Assembly (NCBI GenBank): GCA_902629125.1
Contig: CACOPQ010000001.1
Span: forward strand, 1 to 64,000
From: an uncultured Alphaproteobacteria bacterium
GTDB lineage: Bacteria; Pseudomonadota; Alphaproteobacteria; Thalassobaculales; Thalassobaculaceae
Direction: 5' to 3'
DNA: 64,000 nucleotides
How positions within the stretch are numbered: position 1 is the stretch's first letter; every line of letters begins with the position of its first letter. The notes below the pieces were generated by a model, which had not been told where the DNA came from, searched no databases, and worked only from the letters and a program-made list of their open reading frames with translations. Positions 7,309-10,295 of this stretch are shown one piece after another. The position numbers and the translations under genes were made by a program.

Positions 7309-8829
7309 TTAGTTGCTAAGCTTTTTTGGATCTCGGAATAAAAAGCAAACTGGTATTGAGAATGCTGCAGCTAAGCCAAATAAATGAAAAGCATTCAGGT
7401 AACCTATCATTTGAGCTTGCCTGAATATTTCTTTGCTTAAAGCGTCGAGGTTTAACTTTTCACCCGACATCCACTCCCCAATAATATCCGGAAAACCTAA
7501 TAGTTCGTTAAAGGGGCTGGTTAACGGAGCCATGTTAGAATAATTCCACGCGGCAGTTTCTATCATAACGGCAACACTTATCGAAATAAAAACGCTGCTG
7601 CCAAAATGCCTTAGCAGGTTAAATATACCGGACCCTTCAACCATATCCTTTGCGGTCAATGTTGAAAATGCCAAGAACGCCATCGGCGTGTAGGCAAGAC
7701 CAAAGCCAAAACCATGCAATAAATTAGTCCAGAAAACATCAAATTCCGTTAGATTGATACTAAGTTTCCCCATTTGCCAGCCTGCGATAGCTTGACATGC
7801 TAATCCAACAGCTAAGGCTGATCTCGGTGCCCATCTAGTAAACTGAACAACAATAAGAAAACTTAGCCAATTCCCAAAACCACGAGCTGCGATCAGATAA
7901 CCCACCAGGGAATCCGGATAACCTCTAAGTTCCTGCAATAGCGGTGGAAACAGAACGATCGGTGTATAACTTAGCCATCCCATGGCAAATGCCATGAGGC
8001 AACCCAAAGCAAAATTTCTGTCTAAAAATAAGCGCAAATTTAAAAAAGGGTTCTCACTAGTGAATGAATGAACAATGAAGATATAAAAAGAGACTAGCAT
8101 GATGCAGGTTTCAATAATGATCTCTGGGGATTCAAACCAATCTAACCGTTGTCCTCTATCGAGCACCAATTGTGCTGCCCCAACCGCCAAAGCAAGTGCA
8201 ATAAAACCGGTAAAATCAAATTTTCTGGCGGTTCCTTTCTCTTGGTTTCCAACCGAGATAGCGGCAACAAAGAGACACATTATTCCAAGCGGCACGATCA
8301 TGAAGAAGACCCAGCGCCAATCTGTTGCCTCAGCGATTATCCCACCCAAGATGGGTCCCATCACAGGTCCAAAGACACCGCCAATACCCCAAATCATTAA
8401 CGCCATTGGGTGGAGGCGTCGTGGAAATGTGGCAAGGATCATCCCCTGGCCAAGCGGCAGCATGGGAGCGCCAAAGGCACCTTGACCAATGCGAAAAAAC
8501 ACTAAGCTTTCGAGAGAAGTAGCTAATCCACACAAACCTGAAAATATTGTAAAACCTGTTATGCTTACAAAAAGTAAGTTTCGCCAGCCCAGCGTTTGAG
8601 CCAGCCAGCCTGTTAATGGCGTTGCGATTGCGGTTGCTACGAGATTAAATGTTACCACCCAGGCTATTTGATCGGGTGTAGCAGACATGGCACCCTTTAG
8701 TTGGGGAAGGACTACATTTGCAGCTGTAATTGTCATACCGAATGTCAGGGTCGTGATCTGGACAGTGGCTAATATCAGCCAGTGGTGTAGTCCAACCGGG
8801 GCGTTATCGTCAGCGCTAACAGAAACCAT
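7309..8829 (-). CDS. DHA2-family MFS transporter (EmrB/QacA-like)
   Basis: 14-TM-like, LPQLKGAMSATPDQIAWVVTFNLVATAIATPLTGWL, G-x8-G-x3-GP-x2-GG motif (GGVFGPVMGPILGG). Confidence 0.85.
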   Translation of the reverse strand: MVSVSADDNAPVGLHHWLILATVQITTLTFGMTITAANVVLPQLKGAMSATPDQIAWVVTFNLVATAIATPLTGWLAQTLGWRNLLFVSITGFTIFSGLCGLATSLESLVFFRIGQGAFGAPMLPLGQGMILATFPRRLHPMALMIWGIGGVFGPVMGPILGGIIAEATDWRWVFFMIVPLGIMCLFVAAISVGNQEKGTARKFDFTGFIALALAVGAAQLVLDRGQRLDWFESPEIIIETCIMLVSFYIFIVHSFTSENPFLNLRLFLDRNFALGCLMAFAMGWLSYTPIVLFPPLLQELRGYPDSLVGYLIAARGFGNWLSFLIVVQFTRWAPRSALAVGLACQAIAGWQMGKLSINLTEFDVFWTNLLHGFGFGLAYTPMAFLAFSTLTAKDMVEGSGIFNLLRHFGSSVFISISVAVMIETAAWNYSNMAPLTSPFNELLGFPDIIGEWMSGEKLNLDALSKEIFRQAQMIGYLNAFHLFGLAAAFSIPVCFLFRDPKKLSN

Positions 8830-9035
8830 ATGAATTTATAGACCTTGACTAGTTTATTATCTTTTCTTTAGACCACGGCTGTGAGCAGCTTCTGAAAGAA
8901 CAGAAATGGAAGTATCAAATAACAGAGATACATTAACAGAGAAGTAATACTGATCAAAAAACCAATTTAAGAGTGTTGTCTGAACGTAACATTTATGAGA
9001 GTTTTTAGCTTAACGATTTTACATAGGATTTCTGC

Positions 9036-9353
9036 ATGAAAAATAGACTTATAAGCGACATAGGAGGCTTACCAGAAGGACCATTGGACCTAGCGGAGCA
9101 CGAACCTACAATGACAGAACGCCGGATAGACGCAATGATGATGTTACTTCGTGCAAAGCCACGAAGTTTTTGGGCTTCTGATGAAAATCGACGCACTATC
9201 GAGAACCTCGAACCAGACACATACAAAAAGTCGGAATACTATGAGAGATGGGTATTAGCAATGAAAGAGCTACTTTTAGAAAAAGGTATCCTAACCGAGG
9301 CAGAGATAGAGAACAAACTTAAAGAGGTAAGATCCAGGACGGAGCCTAGCTGA
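9036..9353 (+). CDS. nitrile hydratase / thiocyanate hydrolase beta-type subunit, N-terminal half
   Basis: SDIGGLPEGPLDLAEHEPTMTERRIDAMMMLLR ... YYERWVLAMKELLLEKGILTEAEIENKLKEVRSR resembles the NHase beta N-terminal domain and SCNase beta. Confidence 0.75.
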   Translation: MKNRLISDIGGLPEGPLDLAEHEPTMTERRIDAMMMLLRAKPRSFWASDENRRTIENLEPDTYKKSEYYERWVLAMKELLLEKGILTEAEIENKLKEVRSRTEPS

Positions 9354-9354
9354 T

Positions 9355-9642
9355 ATGAGCGATCAATTTAAGGTGGGATCAAAAGTCCGAGTCACAAAAG
9401 CGTATCCGCCTGGTCATATCCGAACACCATTTTTTTTACGGGGTAAAAAGGGCATAATTATTCGGCACTTTGGCAAATATCCAAATCCAGAGAGATTAGC
9501 ATATGGTTTAAATGGCCTTCCAAAACTTAACTTGTATCAAGTCCTATTTGATATGGAAACCACATGGCAAGGCGATGGTAGTTTTGCTGCCAAAGACACA
9601 CTTACTTCAGACATTTATGAAACATGGTTGGAACTAATATGA
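9355..9642 (+). CDS. nitrile hydratase beta C-terminal half / thiocyanate hydrolase alpha-like subunit
   Basis: FKVGSKVRVTKAYPPGHIRTPFFLRGKKGIIIRHFG...YQVLFDMETTWQGD...IYETWLELI: NHase beta SH3-like C-domain (HxRxPxxxRGKxG). Confidence 0.8.
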   Translation: MSDQFKVGSKVRVTKAYPPGHIRTPFFLRGKKGIIIRHFGKYPNPERLAYGLNGLPKLNLYQVLFDMETTWQGDGSFAAKDTLTSDIYETWLELI

Positions 9643-10295
9643 CAGGAAACAGCGGATCTCACGGTGGACATGATCACTCCCACAACGACTTTCAACCCGA
9701 TATTAAGGAACCAACCGAGAATTGGGAACTTTTGGAAATAGCACTACGAGAGTTGTTAGTGGATAAAGGGGTTTTATCCGCACGAGAAATTCAAGACGAA
9801 ATAGAAGCGTGGGAAAAAAAATCTCCCGAAAAAGGTGCCGAGATAGTCGCAAGAGCTTGGGTTGATGAAGAATTCAAAGCTCGCTTACTTGAAGACGCAA
9901 ACCGAACAATACAGGAGTTTGGGATAGAAGTTGAAATTCTTAAGATGGTAGCATTAGAAAACACGCCAGAGCTTCACCACGTAGTAGTCTGCACGCTGTG
10001 TTCTTGCTACCCGAGACCAATTCTTGGGGTACCCCCATTATGGTACAAGTCAAAGCAATACCGTTCCCGTGTAATTCGTGAGCCGAGAGCTGTTTTACGG
10101 GAATTTGGGACGAAATTATCTGATGATACAGAAATACGAGTAGTCGACTCCACAGCTGACTGTCGCTATCTGGTGATTCCGGTTAGACCAGTTGGCACGG
10201 AGAAAATGACAGAAGAGGAGCTGGCAAAACTTATCACGAGGGATTCGATGATTGGTACTGCACAAGCGCGTGATCCTATTGGACAACGCTCTTAG
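9639..10295 (+). CDS. nitrile hydratase alpha / thiocyanate hydrolase gamma-like subunit (Co-type motif)
   Basis: HHVVVCTLCSCYPRPILGVPPLWYKSKQYRSRVIREPRAVLREFG; CTLCSC metal claw typical of Co-type enzymes; His-rich N-terminus. Start probably 9639 (ATGA overlap with previous gene), not 9624. Confidence 0.9.
   Translation: MTGNSGSHGGHDHSHNDFQPDIKEPTENWELLEIALRELLVDKGVLSAREIQDEIEAWEKKSPEKGAEIVARAWVDEEFKARLLEDANRTIQEFGIEVEILKMVALENTPELHHVVVCTLCSCYPRPILGVPPLWYKSKQYRSRVIREPRAVLREFGTKLSDDTEIRVVDSTADCRYLVIPVRPVGTEKMTEEELAKLITRDSMIGTAQARDPIGQRS

Follow-up and report, generated by a model that had tools for sequence, protein, structure and literature searches.

The window studied here comprises 64,000 nt of contig CACOPQ010000001.1 from an uncultured member of the Thalassobaculaceae, which we take to be a marine alphaproteobacterium. 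Positions 9036 to 10295 hold three coupled genes on the forward strand, encoding the two halves of a nitrile hydratase (NHase) β subunit followed by an α subunit. The first gene (9036–9353, +) encodes βN, an AnhD/ScnB-like protein of 105 aa corresponding to the N-terminal half of NHase β. The second (9355–9642, +) encodes βC, the AnhE/ScnA-like, SH3-like C-terminal half with 95 aa, and the third (9639–10295, +) an α subunit of about 218 aa with a His-rich N-terminus and the metal claw CTLCSCYPR, which is of the Co type and is referred to as R-type below. A single base separates the βN stop from the βC start and an ATGA overlap joins βC and α; an in-frame ATG at 9624 is an alternative start of α that gives a longer overlap with βC. 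All three products matched their Pfam families far over the cut-offs, NHase_beta_N (PF21006, 3.6e-18), NHase_beta_C (PF02211, 2.2e-16) and NHase_alpha (PF02979, 4.8e-80). An earlier note, made from the letters of this DNA, had described the same open reading frames, gap and overlap, had matched the first two to the halves of NHase β and had seen the intact Co-type claw CTLCSC in the third; all of this was recovered. According to the residue columns, βN possesses Arg52, Glu56, Tyr68 and Trp72 and βC possesses His21 and Arg23.

Divergent from the operon lies the gene for a DHA2 (EmrB-type) MFS exporter (7309–8829, −; TIGR00711 305.5, cut-off 230.2), without an adjacent EmrA. By the gene coordinates, the divergent intergenic region spans 206 nt (8830–9035, without strand) and probably holds the promoters of both units; in a promoter and terminator scan, promoter-like matches in this region were no commoner than in shuffles. 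Other neighbours encode hydroxyacid dehydrogenases, Ldh_2, an enolase-superfamily protein and a CMD-family protein. Among the annotated neighbours, no amidase or cobalt-transporter gene adjoins the operon. Genome-wide there were 16 amidase matches, hence a hydratase/amidase route is possible, though without a link to the operon. The cobalt transporters CbtA, NicO and CbiM were not found in the source genome, which is 68% complete.

The split of the β subunit is genuine. A frameshift can split open reading frames, and probable cases occur elsewhere in our collection (βN of L098 and βN of L086), but the chance that decay, or a mistake in sequencing or assembly, has cut a single β gene into βN and βC is negligible. 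The source genome (G000; 2.37 Mb) contains exactly two NHase α matches, each closing its own βN-βC-α operon, and the second, independent operon (contig C26:23372-24620) shows the same split. The β halves were also kept as separate open reading frames in the same-genus genomes G001–G003 and in genera across the family; in the same-genus genome G004 the contig carries α alone. Moreover, βC begins with a start codon of its own, and the inter-domain linker of the fused β is missing here. Against same-genus copies, dN/dS amounted to 0.03–0.06 for βN, 0.04–0.16 for βC and 0.08–0.09 for α; for the two β halves this is far less than 1. Purifying selection acts on all three genes, and because of these values of 0.03–0.16 neither β half is a decaying fragment. 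The assembly-split gene or contiguous β in close relatives that the earlier note had named as a refuter is itself refuted by the relatives sharing the split.

In a carefully computed ML tree with 88 α subunits, a single branch supported at 100/100 divided the sequences into two sides, and this branch between R and W/F also held with the motif columns removed. The W side is characterized by CTLCSC-YP followed by W, F or H, a mostly fused β and an activator gene in 77/79 loci, the R side by CTLCSC-YP-R, a mostly split β and an activator in 0/127 loci, counts that represent non-independent events, as about one R/W transition suffices on the tree. The α subunit of the window, with its Arg, was placed on the R side together with thiocyanate hydrolase (SCNase), opposite the two-subunit Co NHases. 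The SCNases sit on a long branch there. Within the R side, the α of the window belongs to clade A, formed by genera of the same family plus G063 and G088, and the α of the second operon, 52% identical to it, belongs to clade B. The idea that the A and B operons are recent duplicates was discarded on account of the separate clades and the α identity of about 52%, with an AU test that did not reject A+B (p 0.21). An AU test likewise did not reject the grouping of clade A with SCNase (p 0.506), the SCNase branch being long. The suggestion that the operon may represent an undescribed marine branch is valid on a local scale only: most members of the close clade A are marine Alphaproteobacteria, but the whole R-type branch extends over Alphaproteobacteria, Cyanobacteria, Streptomyces, Chloroflexota and others, including the Streptomyces βN-βC-α loci L109 and L169, which are R-type and fall in the same R clade as the window. 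A search for NHase in SAR116 found nothing in a literature with little coverage of subscription journals. The clade-B operon (L087:9358-10645, i.e. G000:C26:23357-24644) lies downstream of dnaE and beside a gene block that is the rpsB region by the order of its open reading frames; all 16 clade-B loci in the family have conserved this block. Between dnaE and this operon, an MlrC/M81 metallopeptidase family gene (L087:10952-11976) is fragmented in the source genome and open in relatives (L067:3310-4872, L089:6836-8374).

The residue after CTLCSC-YP goes together with the architecture of the locus, including the activator gene. Among relatives, named genomes and plasmids, an adjacent activator was present in 0/121 R-type versus 30/31 W/F-type loci, a set whose named genomes had been fetched with an R-type query and are biased accordingly. 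A further draw of 399 genomes across the Pseudomonadota yielded 56 loci: six were R-type, all of them βN-βC-α without activator, 48 were W/H/F-type with an activator in 47, and two had a different claw, CSLCSCTNW. With the activator model TIGR03889, all 27 of the related genomes possessing W-type loci or a β-activator pair scored over the cut-off, versus none of the 25 genomes whose loci are all R-type; G001, from the same genus and 93% complete, is one of these 25. No TIGR03889 activator was found in the source genome at its 68% completeness, and the sole weak match there was βN itself (20.9 bits, cut-off 46). We considered whether βN might be the activator of a lost β and rejected this, as it scored 60 bits with TIGR03888 versus 20.9 bits with TIGR03889 and has kept the β residues. 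The His-rich N-terminus of α was also dismissed as a substitute for the activator, since it is present in fused and split classes alike. Splitting versus fusion of β is a poor clade marker that needs four changes on the tree, whereas the R/W residue needs one. On a plasmid of Gloeocapsopsis dulcis (L195:3953-5620), a W-type NHase has the order α-βN-βC-activator, its β split yet its activator kept; therefore, a split β alone does not predict activator loss. The three domains are arranged in yet another way in genome G060, where βN and α are fused in one open frame and βC lies on another contig (L076:3813-5051, L077:2071-3156). The earlier note had passed over both the Arg that follows CTLCSC-YP as in SCNase and the lack of an activator gene. 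No published description of this partition was found in the literature searched, which included few subscription journals.

The operon probably encodes a Co-type three-subunit NHase of the kind known from Streptomyces canus CGMCC 13662 (ScNHase), in which βN probably also acts as metallochaperone. ScNHase consists of three subunits encoded in the order AnhD-AnhE-AnhA, corresponding to βN-βC-α, without an activator, and AnhD serves as metal chaperone and self-subunit-swapping chaperone (PMC7329996). The operon described here shares with it the gene order, the Co-type claw, the lack of an activator gene and the positions of Glu56 and His21, the numbering being identical to AnhD-Glu56 and AnhE-His21 (PMC13243292). 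It differs by its marine alphaproteobacterial host, and the α subunits of other Streptomyces split loci are only about 53% identical. ScNHase itself is likened here by gene order, claw and cited residues, and its R state is presumed. The comparison with the toyocamycin NHase ToyJKL of Streptomyces rimosus is by description: it too has three subunits and hydrates a C≡N group, but it is part of an antibiotic gene cluster (PMC12648386) and its α alone was reported to be active (PMC7329996). With the two-subunit Co NHases of Pseudonocardia, Pseudomonas putida and Rhodococcus (L- and H-type) the enzyme of the window shares the fold, CTLCSC, βArg52, βGlu56, βTyr68 and βTrp72 at an α identity of about 50–52%; those enzymes differ in their fused β, the usual order α-β-activator and Trp, Phe or His after CTLCSC-YP.

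A rival reading is that the enzyme functions as a thiocyanate hydrolase, binding SCN- via the α Arg after CTLCSC-YP and hydrolysing it to carbonyl sulfide and ammonia, which we regard as quite unlikely. The three subunits, the scnB-scnA-scnC order, the Co claw with YPR and the side of the deep branch are shared with ScnBAC of Thiobacillus thioparus (PDB 2DD4), and the AU test allows clade A to group with SCNase (p 0.51). The Arg occupies the position of SCNase γArg: chain C of 2dd4 reads CTLCSCYPR, chain C of 3vyg has Trp there, and the P. thermophila NHase chain in 3vyh shows the reverse exchange, with Arg where other NHases have Trp. It is the one SCNase-like feature of the α subunit and differs from the classical NHase residue; nevertheless, it is not SCNase-specific, because nearly the whole R-type clade has it. 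The α subunit is only 43% identical to that of ScnBAC, lacks the SCNase γ insertion and the motifs SPxWYR and RWPR, and reached 201.4 bits with the SCNase equivalog TIGR03887, under the cut-off of 291.45. The genuine SCNases used as references scored 357–359 and were taken from an Azospirillum and a Roseomonas plasmid after a search for SCNase γ in 299 Pseudomonadota genomes gave none over the TIGR03887 cut-off. With the NHase equivalog TIGR01323, α scored 253.3 and passed the cut-off of 249.85 by only 3.5 bits. Whereas all or nearly all classes have βArg52, βTyr68, βTrp72 and βC Arg23, the residues βGlu56 and βHis21 show little or no variation in R-type and W-type NHases and are replaced in SCNase by Asn/Ala and Tyr, respectively. 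The window keeps both, as NHases do. The remark in the earlier note that the C-half looks more NHase-like is supported. The split β had been taken there as a hallmark shared by thiocyanate hydrolase and toyocamycin NHase, which is not supported: the layout is found in many phyla, some ordinary W-type NHases are split, the two typical SCNase loci have a fused β, and the βN-βC-α order is not indicative of thiocyanate hydrolase because the S. canus three-subunit NHase shares it (PMC7329996). Indeed, those two SCNases had the only fused βN-βC chains among the 121 R-type loci. At these loci (L198:3875-5517 and L199:3875-5524, on the Azospirillum and Roseomonas plasmids), SCNase β and α form one protein of 283 aa, followed by scnC, and genes for TauE/SafE and for CbtAB or HupE are located nearby.

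Another reading overlaps in chemistry with an ScNHase-like enzyme and differs in the role: a hydratase dedicated to a single metabolite, in the manner of toyocamycin NHase, and paired with the EmrB-type exporter, where it might for instance detoxify a cyano compound or complete its synthesis. The divergent DHA2 exporter stands beside the operon in 11/13 clade-A loci from three genera, no amidase adjoins, and the finding that a single small genome holds the diverged paralogues A and B hints at different substrates. However, recognisable biosynthetic genes are absent beside the operon, and the two clade-A members that do not belong to the family have no such exporter next to them; we consider this role unlikely. 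The narrow TIGR01323 margin, the SCNase-type Arg, the AU result, the lack of an adjoining amidase and the cobalt transporters missing from a 68% complete genome also count against the ScNHase-like enzyme that we favour, and we agree with the earlier note in leaving the substrate open.

For such an ScNHase-like enzyme, similarity to solved structures lets the fold be taken as fixed, and βN and βC would jointly rebuild the β subunit. The α claw CTLCSC would hold a low-spin Co(III), and two of its cysteines would be present in the oxidised forms Cys-SO2H and Cys-SOH, held in turn by conserved β arginines, βN Arg52 and a βC Arg, probably Arg23; a metal-bound nitrile would then be hydrated to the amide. 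As no separate activator exists and βN is homologous to the activator, βN is most likely also the metallochaperone and self-subunit-swapping partner, as AnhD is. The Arg that replaces Trp immediately behind CTLCSC-YP would add positive charge near the active site, for which reason a small, polar or anionic compound may be the natural substrate. The divergent EmrB-type MFS gene hints that the substrate or product is transported.

Industry makes use of nitrile hydratases, and the need of these enzymes for a separate activator limits them in practice. The enzyme branch considered here is widespread but little studied, and the operon probably adds a member to the three-subunit NHases. The part most worth following is the partition between the R/W residue and the activator: a large natural branch lacks the activator gene and carries a diagnostic Arg at the very site exchanged in two deposited structures (3VYG/3VYH), and the compact three-gene operon makes it testable whether βN generally replaces the activator and whether the Arg shifts substrate preference. 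The survey also draws attention to marine bacteria that have two conserved copies of such an enzyme, acting on some ocean substrate. As a broader and doubtful proposition, the R-type α clade might form a distinct activator-free class with βN as cobalt chaperone and an Arg-lined pocket for C≡N compounds that are small and either polar or anionic, such as thiocyanate and cyanamide, with SCNase as one derived member and marine alphaproteobacteria drawing ocean nitrogen via the two paralogues.

Different gene contexts were seen at R-type loci on plasmids. On rhizobial and Streptomyces plasmids, an aquaporin gene follows the R-type NHase genes (L108:4937-5701, L109:4603-5490, L196:5928-6686, L197:5890-6588), often with cobalt transporters (CbtAB, HoxN) present as well; the aquaporin might let a small neutral substrate into the cell. 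On a Planktothrix agardhii plasmid (L107:1406-4591), a split R-type NHase comes immediately after an asparagine synthase gene, which may be a context of specialised metabolism.
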